From positions 1 through 32,029 of the forward strand of contig JAIPDY010000004.1 in assembly GCA_021737445.1 (NCBI GenBank): a stretch of DNA of 32,029 bases. Direction: 5' to 3'. Below the pieces are notes generated by a model that searched no databases, was not told the DNA's origin, and saw only the letters and a list, made by a program, of their open reading frames with translations. The first letter of the stretch is position 1. Each line of letters opens with the position of its first letter. The position numbers were made by a program, and so were the translations under genes. This DNA is from Desulfotignum sp. (GTDB lineage: Bacteria; Desulfobacterota; Desulfobacteria; Desulfobacterales; Desulfobacteraceae). Below are positions 17,501-24,125 of this stretch, one piece after another.

Positions 17501-18045
17501 TGGCAGCCAACGCGTCTGAAGAAGCAGAAGCACACCTTTCCAGCATCACGGAAAATGCCGAGCAGTATCTGCGTTTCCAGATCGCCTCCCTTATCCTGGA
17601 ACAGCAGATAGAAACGTACAGAAAAGAAAACCAGGCCCCTGTTTTAGCCAGGGCCGGTGAACTGTTCTCAACACTGACACGGGGATCTTACGCAGGCCTG
17701 AGGGATGAACTGGATGCTTCCGGAAAGCCGGTGCTGCTGGGTGTCCGCCCGGACGATCAGGAGGTGGCCATCGACGGCATGAGTGACGGATCCCGGGACC
17801 AGCTCTATCTGGCCCTGCGCATGGCCACGCTTGAGCAGCATCTGAAAAAGGGGGAACCCATGCCTTTTGTCGTGGATGATATCCTGATCGGGTTTGATGA
17901 TCACCGCACCCGTGTCTGCCTGGAGGTGCTGGCACAACTGTCAAGGTGCATCCAGGTCCTGCTTTTTACGCACCACAGACGGGTACTGGAGCTGGCAGAT
18001 ACCTGTAATGAAACCGACAGGATCTTTCAGCACGCGCTTTTCTGA
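14533..18045 (+). CDS. yhaN: YhaN-like SMC/Rad50-type ATPase
   Basis: A 1170-residue ATPase with split ABC halves. N-terminal Walker A is GDNEAGKST at 33-41. The C-terminal half carries the signature-like MSDGSRDQLYLALRMATL and Walker B FVVDDILIGFDD. Between them, residues about 170-1010 are long heptad-rich coiled coils. I see no CXXC zinc hook at the apex, which fits YhaN rather than SbcC/Rad50. It starts inside the yhaO stop (ATGA). Its stop codon TGA overlaps an ATG at 18045, 21 bases before the preferred hydrogenase start, so transcription may continue into the hydrogenase genes. Confidence 0.88.
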   Translation: MRINRLDLIAFGRFTEKSLDLSEGDLGLHLIYGDNEAGKSTSLRALTGWLFGIPARTSDNFVHANPQLRIGGELQLSTGETIEFVRRKGNKDTLLAYGSDEPLDETRFRRFLPPGIDETIFTRLWGIDHERLIAGGQELLEQSGDLGQALFSAAAGTANLRDILMEMQNSAVDIFKPRGSKAVLNRAISDYKDALKRMREATLPVSTWKALQNDLSKISAAIKEVEKRIDEKNKLKSGLKRINRVKGALAQRRNCLAKMEALGTVLLLPEDFSDQLKTARKTLQHALDLKERLAAKRDALNKESGSLQVREDLLKNEDAISRLYKELGAVEKTLADRPGQDGKRRLLRNEAQTLLKGIRPDMGLDDADHLRPFLNNKKWISELARKKGLLIQKRDGYNAALKDLQDEIKSLESRLENLPAGDIDLTELKAAVASARKAGDIEQRLNDMTTQAAQEKAACENEFARLGNFHKDADALLSMGLPVAETLDRFEKETDDLMEQSRTASQKKQEIEAEKRQAEQELKALLLKEDVPKIADLEASRKDRDQGWALIKQIYIEQRDVGGRLSSDAHDSDLPAVYEKKVALADHISDRLRLDADQVVKRAGLEAAIDHMTSRIADLSTVLEKINQAGADFDTRWAAIWKPLHVAAGTPREMKQWVLKAEKLIEKIHAAKGVSAREKKLREECGHLKTVMSRQIAGFDPSANIQGKSLEALISLCEQRIEKEQKARDRRHKTADLLKDLHIRLKRTRDDLKTVETGLITWTGEWEKAISGLGLKRDAHPETAMETFDHLVSFFKKFDQSEELRKRIYGMDKVKEEFDRRVHEFAGSMEMKTEDKDALTIAGQLHRDLNAAREARAGLIKIKEQLDEKKQEIKDVFITIRQSQEKISELKTRAGVDTVEELIEAGEKSTHKRELLKQVETLEQELNRNGDGFGIEALEKEVNGSDIDGIEGDIDRISSELGELQSERDTLRDQRQTIQHDIRQNDGSAVAANASEEAEAHLSSITENAEQYLRFQIASLILEQQIETYRKENQAPVLARAGELFSTLTRGSYAGLRDELDASGKPVLLGVRPDDQEVAIDGMSDGSRDQLYLALRMATLEQHLKKGEPMPFVVDDILIGFDDHRTRVCLEVLAQLSRCIQVLLFTHHRRVLELADTCNETDRIFQHALF

Positions 18046-18065
18046 TGAATCGATGGAGAAACCCC

Positions 18066-19019
18066 ATGGACAATAACTGCAACGTGCAAAATGTTCAGGA
18101 AAAACATGTTATCTGGGTTCAAGCCGCCAGTGACAGCGGCTGTTCAATATCTGTGTTAAATTCCGTGAGACCGGAAATTCATTCCGTGCTTTTTGATGAA
18201 CTGGTACCGGGGCATCATATAAACCTGCTGTTTCAGGCCACGATCATGGCAGGGCAGGGAGAGCAGGTTGTGTCTGTTCTCGATGACCCGGTCCTGGCAG
18301 ATACGGACTTTCTGCTCGTTGTCGAAGGCGCGGTCCCCTTTGGAAAAAACTATTGTTCCCTGGGTGAGGAAGGGGGCAAAGACATCTCCATTGCCCGGCG
18401 GATAACCGATCTTGCGCGGCACGCCGAAGCGGTGATTGCTGTTGGTACATGTGCGTCGTTTGGAGGAATCTTTGCAAGCTACCCGAACATAACACAATGT
18501 GCAGGGGCGGGAGAACTGCTGGCAAAAGAAAAAATAAACAAACCCCTTATCAATATTCCCGGCTGTCCCCCGCATCCCGACTGGTTCCTGGGCACTCTCG
18601 CTCATTTGATTCTCTTTGGTTTGCCCGGGCCCGAAGAGCTGGATGAGCTGAATCGCCCGAAACTGTTTTACAGTCAATTGATTCATGAAAATTGTCCCAG
18701 ACGTGCGCATTTCGATGCGGGCAGGTTTGCAAAGCGCCTGTCGGAACCTTACTGCCTTTATCTTCTTGGCTGCCGCGGGCCGGTGACCCATGCCGATTGT
18801 CCCACCCGGCAATGGAATAACGGTGTGAACTGGTGCATTGAAAATAATCATCCCTGTATAGGATGTTGTGAGCCGGAGTTTCCAGACGGCACGTCCCCAT
18901 TTTTTGAAAAAAGGCTGGACATCCATGCGCCTGCTTTACGAAAGGACACGTCCGGCAGGCTCAAGGCGCAAAACACGGTAACCGCGTTTTCGGGCCGAAA
19001 TACGGAGGATGGTGATTAA
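18066..19019 (+). CDS. [NiFe]-hydrogenase small subunit, cytoplasmic, with Asp for a proximal-cluster Cys
   Basis: Start ATG 18066 has GGAG seven bases upstream and is preferred to ATG 18045, which overlaps the yhaN stop; 317 residues. There is no Tat signal, so it is cytoplasmic. The motif normally reading CxGC is SDSGCS (D23, C26), so Asp replaces the first proximal-cluster ligand. All other ligands are present: VGTCASFGG and IPGCPPHPDW (proximal); IHENCPRR, LLGCRGP and HADCP (distal); NWC and PCIGCCEP (medial). The body resembles uptake-type (group 1-like) small subunits. The large subunit follows directly, then metV and metF. It should pass electrons from the Ni-Fe site to a partner, here most simply MetV. 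Confidence 0.88.
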   Translation: MDNNCNVQNVQEKHVIWVQAASDSGCSISVLNSVRPEIHSVLFDELVPGHHINLLFQATIMAGQGEQVVSVLDDPVLADTDFLLVVEGAVPFGKNYCSLGEEGGKDISIARRITDLARHAEAVIAVGTCASFGGIFASYPNITQCAGAGELLAKEKINKPLINIPGCPPHPDWFLGTLAHLILFGLPGPEELDELNRPKLFYSQLIHENCPRRAHFDAGRFAKRLSEPYCLYLLGCRGPVTHADCPTRQWNNGVNWCIENNHPCIGCCEPEFPDGTSPFFEKRLDIHAPALRKDTSGRLKAQNTVTAFSGRNTEDGD

Positions 19020-19020
19020 A

Positions 19021-20580
19021 GTGACAGAAATAACGATCGATCCTGTAACGCGGGTAGAAGGGCATCTTAAGGTTACCGCAAAGGTGGATGACAAAGAGGT
19101 CAAGGATGTCGAATGTTCCGGGGTTCTGTTCCGTGGTTTCGAAGTTTTCCTGAAAGACAGAGATCCCAGAGACGCACAACGCCTGACCCAGCGCATATGC
19201 GGCGTATGTCCTTCAGCGCATGCCACTGCGGCCGCGCTTGCCCTGGACAATGCGTTTGGCATTGAGAATCAGATAACTGACAACGGCCGGATAATCCGCA
19301 ATCTTATCCTGGGCTGCAATTTTTTGCAATCGCATATTCTGCATTTTTATCATCTTGCAGCGCTTGATTATGTGGATGTTACTGCCGCCGGCGGCTATGC
19401 CGGGCATGACCCTGATTTACAATCATTGCGCAAATTTCTTGCCAGAAAACATCTTGAGCCTTTTTTTCCCCGGTACGAAGGAGATTACAGATTATCCAGA
19501 AAGCAGAATCAAAAGGCATGCGCCCATTACGTCCAGGCCCTGCGGGTGAGGCGGAAGGCCCATGAAATTCTCTGTGTCTTCGGGGGAAAAATGCCGCATA
19601 GTATGACAATCGTGCCCGGCGGCGTAACCACCACGCCGTCAGCCGACAAGATCACCTCTTTTCTGAGCGGGTTGAACGAAATTCGCAGATTCATCAATAA
19701 TGTGTATCTGCCTGATATACTGATGATCGCCCGGACATATGACGATTATTTTGCGATCGGCAAAGGCGCTGATAGATTTTTGTCTTACGGCGTGTTCGAT
19801 CTTGAAGCGCGCTGCGGAACTCCGGTTGACCGCAGCTGTTTTCTGCCCCAGGGGGTTATGGACAGTTCCTTGAACAGGGCGGATACGGATCTGGCGAAAA
19901 TAACCGAGGAAGTCACGCATTCCTGGTACGATGATCAAGGGGGAAACACCCATCCTTCCAGGGAAAAAACAACCCCTCTCAGGGGAAAAAAACAAGCCTG
20001 TTCGTGGGTGAAGTCGCCGCGTTATCAAGGCAAAGTCACGGAGGTGGGTCCTCTTTCCAGGATGCTCGCTGCGTATGTTTCTGACCATAACGGCGCAAAA
20101 AACATCATCAATTCCGTATTGTCGGAAGTTGGCGCTCAACCGTCTGATCTGCTTTCGGTCTGCGGAAGACATGCGGCACGGGCAATTGAAGCCAAGCTGA
20201 TAGCCGATGCCATGGCAGAGTGGGTTTTACAGGTCAAGCCCGGGGTGCCTGTTTGCGTCGATTATCAGCTGCCCGATCAGGCAGAGGGTGTCGGCATTAC
20301 GGACGCGCCAAGGGGCGCACTGGGTCACTGGATCAAGATAGCAGACAAAAAAATCGCAAATTATCAGCTCGTGGCGCCGACCACATGGAATGCCTCGCCA
20401 AAAGATGCCGGAAATAATCCGGGCCCCATGGAGCAGGCCATACTGGGCACCAAAGTTCAGGATGAGAACAATCCATATGAAATTGTAAGAATCCTGCGGT
20501 CATTCGATCCGTGCCTTGCCTGCGCCGTGCATGCTGTGGACGTTAAGGGACGCAATTTAAGAGAATACAAAATTTCCTAG
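19021..20580 (+). CDS. [NiFe]-hydrogenase large subunit
   Basis: A 519-residue protein from GTG 19021 (MTEITIDPVTRVEGHLKV, the usual start). ATG 19009 is possible but abuts its own GGAGG. The nickel ligands are in RICGVCPSAHA (C60, C63) and, at the end, DPCLACAVH. A 15-residue tail after that His implies removal by a maturation endopeptidase, whose gene is not in the window. It catalyses reversible H2 splitting. VLFRGFE and GHWIKI are also family features. The gene follows the small subunit without a gap and precedes metV by 48 bases. The pairing with MetVF rather than with HdrABC, MvhD or a cytochrome is unusual. Confidence 0.92.
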   Translation: MTEITIDPVTRVEGHLKVTAKVDDKEVKDVECSGVLFRGFEVFLKDRDPRDAQRLTQRICGVCPSAHATAAALALDNAFGIENQITDNGRIIRNLILGCNFLQSHILHFYHLAALDYVDVTAAGGYAGHDPDLQSLRKFLARKHLEPFFPRYEGDYRLSRKQNQKACAHYVQALRVRRKAHEILCVFGGKMPHSMTIVPGGVTTTPSADKITSFLSGLNEIRRFINNVYLPDILMIARTYDDYFAIGKGADRFLSYGVFDLEARCGTPVDRSCFLPQGVMDSSLNRADTDLAKITEEVTHSWYDDQGGNTHPSREKTTPLRGKKQACSWVKSPRYQGKVTEVGPLSRMLAAYVSDHNGAKNIINSVLSEVGAQPSDLLSVCGRHAARAIEAKLIADAMAEWVLQVKPGVPVCVDYQLPDQAEGVGITDAPRGALGHWIKIADKKIANYQLVAPTTWNASPKDAGNNPGPMEQAILGTKVQDENNPYEIVRILRSFDPCLACAVHAVDVKGRNLREYKIS

Positions 20581-20628
20581 CAGGGGCGCAATCCATGACG
20601 AATGAGGCCGTTCAAAGGAGAATAAGCA

Positions 20629-21315
20629 ATGCTTGTCAGTGAAATGAAGCCGGATGAAGAAATCCTGGATATGCTCGAGATGGTTCACAGCATATATCTT
20701 GTGGGATGTAACGGGTGCGCCGAGGTATGCAAAACAGGGGGAGCAAAAGCGGTGGCGGCGTACCGAAAATTTCTGGAGACGCAGGATAAGGAAGTGTCCG
20801 GGATATGCAATGTAGACTTTCTTTGCAATAACGTGCTTACCGGCACCCGGCTGGTCAGAGAGATTGAGCCGATTGACCGGTCAGAAGCGATTCTGGTTTT
20901 TTCCTGTGGCGTGGGCGTACAGGTTGTAGGTGCGGTTGTGGACAAGCCGGTTTTTCCGGCGGCCAATACAATTTCGATGGGGGGGCATTTCGGGCTGTGG
21001 CCTGGGGCAGAAAAATGCGCGCAATGTGGTAACTGCGTGCTTGGCTATACCGGTGGTATATGCCCCGTAACCGGTTGTGCCAAAAGTCTGGTGAACGGAC
21101 AGTGCGGCGGAACCACCCGCGGCGGCGACTGCGAGGTGGAAAAAGGCCGGCCCTGTGCCTGGCTGCAGATTTACGAGCGCCTGAAGACAATCGACAGGCT
21201 CGATCTTTACCGCCGGATACTGGCGCCGCAGGATAAGTCCAAATTAATGCCGGGAGTGAAACAGAGAAAAACCCTTTACTGGGCCATCGATCAGGATGTG
21301 AAACGCAAAGAGTGA
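20629..21315 (+). CDS. metV: MetV, iron-sulfur partner of methylene-tetrahydrofolate reductase
   Basis: A 228-residue protein of the MTHFR C-terminal (MetV) family. The N-terminal GCNGCAEVCKTGGAKAV and the C-terminal cluster region (CAQCGNCVLGYTGGICPVTGC, quoted in part, then GQCGG, GGDCEV and PCAWLQIYERL) supply at least eleven cysteines for Fe-S clusters and zinc. In acetogens MetV passes electrons to the flavin of MetF. AAGGAG stands nine bases before ATG 20629. The hydrogenase large subunit lies 48 bases upstream and metF 34 bases downstream, so the four genes form one operon. No RnfC2, HdrA or MvhD gene is nearby to supply electrons from NADH or ferredoxin. Confidence 0.88.
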   Translation: MLVSEMKPDEEILDMLEMVHSIYLVGCNGCAEVCKTGGAKAVAAYRKFLETQDKEVSGICNVDFLCNNVLTGTRLVREIEPIDRSEAILVFSCGVGVQVVGAVVDKPVFPAANTISMGGHFGLWPGAEKCAQCGNCVLGYTGGICPVTGCAKSLVNGQCGGTTRGGDCEVEKGRPCAWLQIYERLKTIDRLDLYRRILAPQDKSKLMPGVKQRKTLYWAIDQDVKRKE

Positions 21316-21349
21316 TCATGGTCCCTGTATGTTGGAAAAAGAGGATACA

Positions 21350-22240
21350 ATGAGCGTCAGTCAGCTGCAACACAAACTTGAAAACAGGTCATTCGTTGTG
21401 ACCGGTGAAACAGGTCCTCCCAAGGGAACAAACATGAACCAATGTCTGCACAGGGCTGAAAACCATCTCAAGGGCAGGTGTGATGCGGTTAACGTGACTG
21501 ACAATCAAAGCGCGATCATGCGGACAGGATCGCTGGCCACCTGTCGCCTGTTCATGGACAGGGACATGGAACCGGTTTTCCAGATGGTGTGCCGTGATAG
21601 AAATGCGATTGCATTGCAATCCGACATACTGTCTGCATACGCCCTTGGCATCCGCAATGTACTGGCCCTTACCGGTGACCACCAGGCCCTGGGCGACCAT
21701 CCCCAGGCATCCGGGGTATTTGACCTCGATTCGGTAAGTTTATTGAAGGCGCTTTGCACTCTGGAATCGGGCAGGGATATCTCCGGAAATGTGTTGGACG
21801 GTGCCCCGAAATTCTGCAAGGGGGCTGTTGTTACGCCGGGTGCAGAACCCGTGGAGCCCCAGATCATCAAAATGGAAAAGAAGGTTGAAGCAGGCGCACA
21901 GTTTTTCCAGACACAGGCTGTTTACGACATCAAGCAGTTTGAAACGTTCATGAAACGGGTTGAAAAATTCAATGTTCCCGTTCTGGCCGGCCAGGTGATT
22001 CTGAAATCAGCTGGAATGGCGAGGTTCTTGAATGCCAACGTCTCCGGAATAAACGTACCTGAGCATCTTATCTCCAAACTGGAGAAAGATAAAGAAGCGG
22101 CCAAATCCGGTCAAACAGGAGCGAGAATTTGTGCGGACTTTGTAAAGGAAGCCAAAGCAATGTGCCAGGGTGTCCATTTGATGACGCTGGGCTGGGATCA
22201 TCTTGTGCCGGATATTTTTGAGATGGCAGATTTAGGCTGA
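21350..22240 (+). CDS. metF: 5,10-methylenetetrahydrofolate reductase MetF
   Basis: ATG 21350 is preferred to the ORF-track start at 21329 because a GAGGA box precedes it; 296 residues. It is a flavin-dependent TIM-barrel enzyme interconverting CH2-H4folate and CH3-H4folate. The catalytic Glu lies in TGETGPPKGTN, and the flavin and folate contacts lie in VTDNQSA, LALTGDHQALGDHPQA and FFQTQAVYD. The protein is short, lacking any NADH-binding or regulatory extension, as in MetVF-type enzymes that depend on MetV for electrons. It is the last gene of the hydrogenase-metVF operon; no strong terminator follows. Confidence 0.9.
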   Translation: MSVSQLQHKLENRSFVVTGETGPPKGTNMNQCLHRAENHLKGRCDAVNVTDNQSAIMRTGSLATCRLFMDRDMEPVFQMVCRDRNAIALQSDILSAYALGIRNVLALTGDHQALGDHPQASGVFDLDSVSLLKALCTLESGRDISGNVLDGAPKFCKGAVVTPGAEPVEPQIIKMEKKVEAGAQFFQTQAVYDIKQFETFMKRVEKFNVPVLAGQVILKSAGMARFLNANVSGINVPEHLISKLEKDKEAAKSGQTGARICADFVKEAKAMCQGVHLMTLGWDHLVPDIFEMADLG

Positions 22241-22748: not shown

Positions 22749-24125
22749 TCACGCCGCCTTTTTTACCATCAATTCTCTTGTTTTTGCCACTTCCGCACTC
22801 TCCACATACGCATCAAAGGTCATCAAACGGTCGATAATACCGGCGGGTGTAAGCTCGATTACCCGGTTGACAAGCGTATTGACAAACTCATGATCATGGG
22901 AGGTGAAAAGCACCACCTCCGGAAAATGGATCAGGCTGTTATTCAATGCCGTGATGGATTCGAGATCCAGGTGATTGGTGGGCTCATCCAGGATCAGGGC
23001 ATTGGATCGGGCAAGCATCATGCGCGAAAGCATGCACCGCACCTTTTCCCCGCCTGAAAGCACATCCGTGGTTTTGAGGGCATCCTCCCCTGAAAAGAGC
23101 ATGCGCCCTAAAAACGTGCGGGCAAAGCTTTCTCCCTCTTTGGGAGGGGCAAACTGAAGCAGCCATTCAATCAGGTTCAGGTTCCCGTTGAAATACCCCT
23201 GGTGCTCTTTGGGAAAATAGGAGTGGCTGATGGTGGTTCCCCACCGGTAGCTGCCTTTATCAGGTTCCATCTCTCCTGCAATGATCTGGAAGAGGGTGGT
23301 TTTGGCCAGGCTGTTACTTCCCATGAAAGCGATTTTGTCATTTTTATTGACGGTAAAACTGACATTATCAAGAACAATTTCCCCGTCAATGGTCTTTGAA
23401 ACCCCTTCCACTTCAAGGATAATATTGCCGCAGGGCCGTTCCGGGGTAAACCGGATAAACGGGTAATTTCTCGATGATACGGGCATGTCTTCAATGGTCA
23501 GTTTTTCCAGCAGTTTTTTTCTGGAGGTGGCCTGTCTGGACTTGGATGCATTGGAAGAAAATCTCTGGATAAAGGTCTTGAGTTCATTGGCCCGGTCCGT
23601 GATTTTTTTGTTGTCCGCCTGTTTTTGGTTCAGGTGCAGCTGACTGGCCTGGTACCAGAAATCATAATTTCCCGCGTACACGGCAATTTTACCAAAATCA
23701 ATGTCTGCAATGTGGGTGCAGACCTGATTCATGAAATGGCGGTCATGGGATACCACAATGACGGTATTTTTAAACCGGTACAGAAAGTCTTCCAGCCAGG
23801 CGATCGAGTGAATGTCCAGATTGTTGGTGGGCTCATCGAGCAACAGCACATCCGGGTTTCCGAACAGGGCCTGGGCCAGGAGCACCCGGTGTGTATCAAA
23901 GGCAAAGTGGTCCTGTCGTAACACGGCAATTCTTTCTTTGGGGCCCACACTGATGTCGCCTGTATCCGGTTCGATCTCTCTGGCCAGAATTTTTAAAAAA
24001 GTGGATTTTCCCGCGCCATTGGCCCCGATAAGCCCGTAACAGTTTCCGGGTTTGAACATAATGTTTACATCTTTGAACAGCACCTGTTTACCATAAGCCA
24101 GGGCTATGTTATTTGCACAGATCAT
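22749..24125 (-). CDS. ABC-F family ATPase with deletion in the first ATPase domain
   Basis: A 458-residue soluble ABC-F protein (YbiT-like) with two ATPase domains. Domain 1 has Walker A GANGAGKST (34-42) and Walker B LLLDEPTNNLD. Between RQDHFAFDTHRVL and LAQALFGNPD, about 80 residues usual in relatives are missing, including the LSGGEK signature. Domain 2 is complete (GSNSLAKTTLF, VLSGGEKVRCML, LILDEPTNHLD). The joint falls at VL (23880-23885), where both flanks of a normal gene would read VL, consistent with a deletion between short repeats that kept the frame. ABC-F proteins bind the ribosomal E site, and loss of one signature should impair ATP-driven cycling. A leader terminator lies upstream. 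Confidence 0.82.
   Translation of the reverse strand: MICANNIALAYGKQVLFKDVNIMFKPGNCYGLIGANGAGKSTFLKILAREIEPDTGDISVGPKERIAVLRQDHFAFDTHRVLLAQALFGNPDVLLLDEPTNNLDIHSIAWLEDFLYRFKNTVIVVSHDRHFMNQVCTHIADIDFGKIAVYAGNYDFWYQASQLHLNQKQADNKKITDRANELKTFIQRFSSNASKSRQATSRKKLLEKLTIEDMPVSSRNYPFIRFTPERPCGNIILEVEGVSKTIDGEIVLDNVSFTVNKNDKIAFMGSNSLAKTTLFQIIAGEMEPDKGSYRWGTTISHSYFPKEHQGYFNGNLNLIEWLLQFAPPKEGESFARTFLGRMLFSGEDALKTTDVLSGGEKVRCMLSRMMLARSNALILDEPTNHLDLESITALNNSLIHFPEVVLFTSHDHEFVNTLVNRVIELTPAGIIDRLMTFDAYVESAEVAKTRELMVKKAA

Follow-up and report, generated by a model that had tools for sequence, protein, structure and literature searches.

What does an aspartate do at a hydrogenase position where a cysteine ligand of the proximal iron–sulfur cluster is expected? 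The question is raised by a [NiFe] hydrogenase small subunit encoded in a 32,029-nucleotide stretch of DNA from a Desulfotignum sp. (the window). An earlier note on this DNA reported the motif S-D-S-G-C at 18129–18143, with the codon GAC at 18132–18134, placed the Asp at the first proximal-Cys position, and proposed that it tunes the cluster to the methylene/methyl-THF couple. Here we consider the residue, its recurrence in other genomes, and the operon in which it lies.

The proximal-cluster motif and its ligands

The sequence bears out the motif and its GAC codon. The features of the small-subunit gene are as follows.

18066..19019, + strand: [NiFe] hydrogenase small subunit, group 1 type, without Tat signal (TIGR00391, PF14720, PF01058, 4kl8_S)
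18129..18143, + strand: proximal-cluster motif S-D-S-G-C (AGT GAC AGC GGC TGT), aligned to C-T-G-C of 4kl8/1cc1
18132..18134, + strand: Asp30 codon GAC, replacing the first proximal-cluster Cys (sequence, 121-row alignment)
18141..18143, + strand: Cys33, second motif Cys, proximal cluster (sequence, alignment)
18450..18452, + strand: Cys136, proximal cluster (Cys in 118/118 rows with a letter)
18564..18566, + strand: Cys174, proximal cluster (Cys in 118/118 rows with a letter)
18684..18773, + strand: distal-cluster ligands His214, Cys217, Cys237 and Cys243 (sequence, alignment)
18798..18866, + strand: medial-cluster ligands Cys252, Cys264, Cys271 and Cys274 (sequence, alignment, 4kl8/1cc1 match)

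The frame is open from an ATG at 18045 (18045–19019, 324 codons), but the ATG at 18066 is the likelier start because GGAG lies just upstream of it. Residues are numbered here from 18045, so that Asp30 is the Asp23 of the earlier count from 18066. The protein scores 242 bits against TIGR00391, above the cut-off of 179.5, matches PF14720 and PF01058 in profile searches, and has 4kl8_S as its top PDB match (E 8e-72). With phmmer, D30 and C33 fall on the two Cys of the C-T-G-C motif in the [NiFeSe] hydrogenases 4kl8 and 1cc1, with no gap in the alignment, and Asp30 therefore occupies the place of the first proximal Cys, as had been claimed. Among 121 aligned small subunits this column holds 113 Cys, 4 Asp and 4 gaps. 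The remaining 11 Fe-S ligand positions carry the standard ligands and are near-invariant across the alignment, in agreement with the earlier reading that all other ligands are present. The proximal site is thus made up of three Cys and Asp30, in place of the four Cys typical of group 1; exceptions to the four-Cys site are on record, hence it is not strictly defining (PMC4070099).

The closest solved sequences are the [NiFeSe] enzymes of Desulfomicrobium and Desulfovibrio (4kl8, 1cc1, 3ze6), which share a four-Cys medial cluster with the window protein. Cys264 stands at a medial position held by Pro in standard enzymes, and on the strength of this residue the medial cluster should be of the [4Fe-4S] type, like that of the [NiFeSe] enzymes. 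The latter differ, however, in their C-T-G-C proximal motif, their periplasmic location and the selenocysteine of their large subunit: at the C-terminal nickel site the window has TGC and TGC codons, with no in-frame TGA. Scores against NF045520 (288.6 bits, cut-off 470) and NF045518 (519.7 bits, cut-off 780) both fall below threshold. An AlphaFold model of the small subunit is of moderate quality (pLDDT 69) and contains no cluster; a fold search with it returned [NiFeSe] small subunits, 4kl8 first (E 3e-22), with low TM-scores and a weak C-terminal model.

The earlier note had named one nearby cysteine, C5 in its numbering and Cys12 in ours, as a residue that might take over the ligand position. 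Cys12 is not conserved in the 121-row alignment. Two of the other D-x-G-C proteins described below have no Cys at all before the motif, and the third has one inside its Tat signal only. Since it is not conserved and is missing from the mature N-termini of these proteins, Cys12 is an unlikely stand-in.

Recurrence and precedents of the first-position aspartate

Sought in other small subunits, as the earlier note had proposed, D-x-G-C is present in three other genomes. A scan of the genome collection with the window protein gave 80 relatives, in which every readable motif is C-x-G-C except that of L056, on an Aerophobetes contig (D-S-G-C). A DNA pattern consisting of an aromatic residue, six positions and D-x-G-C yielded two further small subunits, both from Chloroflexota and both reading D-N-G-C: L121, which is Tat-exported, and L122, which is Huc-like. 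The same pattern gave no more convincing cases in 17 Aerophobota genomes, 395 genomes of the window's own phylum and 289 of the phylum of L032; hits in G172, G775, G970 and G1030 did not resemble a hydrogenase motif and were put down to chance. With Cys instead of Asp, the pattern found 12 hits in 385 Chloroflexota genomes, about eight of them resembling group 1 enzymes. Asp at position 1 is therefore a minority state in Chloroflexota, yet not vanishingly rare.

The Asp codons of the four D-x-G-C genes are GAC, GAT, GAT and GAC, and a change from TGY to GAY takes two base changes. In a small-subunit tree built without the motif columns, the four genomes are spread over three parts: L122 groups within the Huc-like enzymes (support 99), L121 falls outside the MetVF clade, and the sister of the window protein, L032 (SH-aLRT 99), reads C-S-G-C. 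The most parsimonious count is four Cys/Asp changes. Because a constraint holding the window and L056 together was not rejected (p-AU 0.34), four origins are not firm, and the tree points to at least three independent ones. A separate variation at the proximal site is seen in the Aerophobetes small subunits L059, L072, L073 and L077, which have G-D-C for G-T-C directly before Cys136.

Nor is the first-position Asp new. The hydrogenase small subunit YP_305362 of Methanosarcina barkeri was tabulated in 2014 as a Cys to Asp change at proximal position 1, in a list where each ligand substitution has multiple members (Table 1 of PMC4070099; Yonemoto et al. 2014), and the Alteromonas macleodii hydrogenase variant HynS C78D, altered at the equivalent position, is active (PMC4070099). 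The substitution is therefore of an already known kind, and the window Asp is an uncommon tolerated variant, not a new kind of cluster. Both precedents differ from the window protein: the M. barkeri enzyme, cited here after that table, is archaeal, whereas HynS is Tat-exported and C78D was engineered in the G1 background, in which Asp variants are less active. At C78 and two other 'privileged' positions only Asp or nothing is tolerated, and the variants purified did not include C78D (PMC4070099).

The Ralstonia enzyme carries its Asp elsewhere. HofK (Ralstonia/Cupriavidus), of the actinobacterial type or group 1h, is identical to PDB 5AA5 chain A and reads C-D-G-D; it resembles the window protein in having one Asp among its proximal ligands, but at the second motif position, the group 1h hallmark that the D-S-G-C of the window lacks. 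The earlier note was thus correct both in placing the Ralstonia Asp at the second Cys and in calling the window position a different one. In several Huc-like enzymes the second position is Asn or Asp, and Huc itself reads C-S-G-N. The window's own genome encodes a second, Huc-like small subunit (L002, G000:C196) with C-G-G-D, so Asp occurs at either motif position within one genome. We also note that the gene table of PLSDB names HofK (L113, 3963–5018 on megaplasmid pHG1, NC_005241) 'hydrogenase expression protein HypE'.

The hydrogenase-MetVF operon

The small-subunit gene opens an operon (18045–22240) in the order small subunit, large subunit, metV, metF, of which the downstream members are:

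19009..20580, + strand: hydrogenase large subunit (NF033181, PF00374; active-site Cys64, Cys67, Cys502, Cys505)
20629..21315, + strand: MetV-like Fe-S protein, methylene-THF reductase C-terminal domain family (PF12225, 1.4e-29)
21329..22240, + strand: MetF, methylene-THF reductase flavoprotein (PF02219, 2.9e-40)

The large subunit scores 658 bits against NF033181, above the cut-off of 600, and also matches PF00374; its two CxxC nickel motifs are RICGVC (C64, C67) and DPCLAC (C502, C505), with Cys and not Sec. Its residue 331 (19999–20001) is Cys, against Tyr in 72 of the 73 rows aligned. Eleven Cys are kept in at least 95% of 68 MetV rows.

The arrangement recurs widely. Of the related loci, 60 extend at least 3.3 kb downstream, and every one of these has metV there; among all 80, MetV is matched in 70 and MetF in 64, most of the others ending too soon. 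These operons (L032–L111) come from metagenome-assembled genomes carrying labels of more than 10 phyla. A Tat signal is absent from the window protein and the MetVF clade; L094 and L106 carry one, and neither shows a MetVF match. Between the large subunit and metV the window has no maturation protease gene (20580–20629), whereas this gap exceeds 350 bp in 33 of 67 related operons and holds a protease in L032 and L056. The operon, small-large-(protease)-metV-metF, is conserved and cytosolic, and its composition suggests a direct H2:methylene-THF oxidoreductase. The same genome encodes a CODH/ACS beta subunit. Beyond the operon, on the minus strand at 22749–24125, an ABC-F ATPase frame seems about 80 residues short within its first ATPase domain (its best stretch against NF011646 begins at residue 79 and profile position 163).

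In the open-licence literature searched, outside which most subscription papers lie, we found no paper describing a hydrogenase-MetVF operon. The MetVF-type methylene-THF reductases in the passages of PMC8760232 consulted have the same MetV and MetF core but differ in their partners, RnfC2 or HdrCBA-MvhD, and none of those typed there is paired with a two-subunit [NiFe] hydrogenase.

Role of the aspartate and meaning of the operon

On balance we favour a reading in which the window hydrogenase is the H2-oxidising partner of MetVF, with a proximal cluster bound by three Cys and one Asp, a tolerated and recurring swap without adaptation to MetVF. The cytosolic [NiFe] dimer would oxidise H2 and hand the electrons, via its distal cluster, to MetV, a step we infer from gene order only; from this Fe-S protein they would reach the flavin of MetF, which would reduce methylene-THF to methyl-THF as part of the Wood-Ljungdahl pathway. 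The most likely role of Asp30 is to bind a [4Fe-4S] proximal cluster along with Cys33, Cys136 and Cys174. That Asp serves as the fourth ligand is the most economical interpretation, given the mutant data and the parallel with the group 1h enzymes, which are described as having a [4Fe4S] proximal cluster coordinated by an Asp (PMC7174314). Asp30 would then be an occasionally recurring replacement that leaves electron transfer working, and probably no adaptation to the MetVF partner. With potentials of -414 mV for H2 and -200 mV for methylene-THF, as given in PMC8760232, the calculated reaction is exergonic by ~41 kJ/mol, so no special tuning is needed.

The main rival to Asp ligation, possible though considerably less probable, is that the three-Cys site holds a [3Fe-4S] cluster, with Asp unbound and the potential raised by ~250 mV as in Huc. 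The high-affinity hydrogenase Huc, with its C-S-G-N motif, does have a proximal [3Fe-4S] cluster (PMC10017518), and in PsaC the replacement of Cys by Asp can yield either [3Fe-4S] or a lower-potential [4Fe-4S] cluster (reviewed in PMC4070099). Against this, the Ralstonia group 1h enzyme is the solved case, and there the Asp is a ligand (PMC7174314); Asp is the best-tolerated replacement at proximal position 1 (PMC4070099), and a retained Asp is plausible as fourth ligand. Rather improbable, in our estimate, is a bolder reading: that a two-subunit [NiFe] hydrogenase plus MetVF acts as a direct cytosolic H2:methylene-THF oxidoreductase in a wide range of uncultured bacteria, and that in the lineage studied here Asp at position 1 naturally binds the proximal cluster, altering its potential and shifting the catalytic bias.

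The hypothesis of the earlier note, that the Asp tunes the cluster to the methylene/methyl-THF couple, fares worse and appears very unlikely. Two of the four D-x-G-C genes, those of the window and L056, do sit in MetVF operons. These are, however, the only two MetVF-clade small subunits with Asp: the rest of the readable ones keep Cys beside the same MetV and MetF partners, and the Tat-exported L121 and Huc-like L122 have Asp with no MetVF match within the 15–16 kb fetched around each. That nearly the whole operon family retains Cys makes an adjustment to this partner unlikely.

We give still less credence to a decaying enzyme in which Asp marks lost function. The Asp30 site is otherwise near-invariant and Tyr331 of the large subunit is replaced, but the four frames are intact, every other ligand is retained, and so are almost all of the 95%-conserved positions of the large subunit and MetV. 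A mistake in sequencing or assembly is scarcely credible, even though the genome is a fragmented metagenome-assembled draft of 260 contigs with 88.9% completeness, because one codon would need two base changes and D-x-G-C is seen in three other genomes (Aerophobetes and two Chloroflexota). Mis-binning of the contig was rejected on tetranucleotide use: the distance to the own genome is 0.12 for the downstream flank and 0.24 for the operon, at the upper edge of the 0.135–0.253 spanned by the genome's own 4.2-kb chunks, whereas the operon-bearing loci L032, L034 and L056 lie well above, at 0.38–0.45.

The D-x-G-C enzymes are natural, evolutionarily independent cases of Asp for Cys at a hydrogenase site among the least tolerant in laboratory mutagenesis, and through them effects on cluster type and potential become testable in a native setting. 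Of greater interest than the Asp is the hydrogenase-MetVF operon with its wide distribution. In MetVF-type acetogens the physiological electron donor for methylene-THF reduction is still debated (PMC8760232); judging from the operon, many uncultured acetogen-like bacteria may have a simple way of passing electrons from H2 to methylene-THF.
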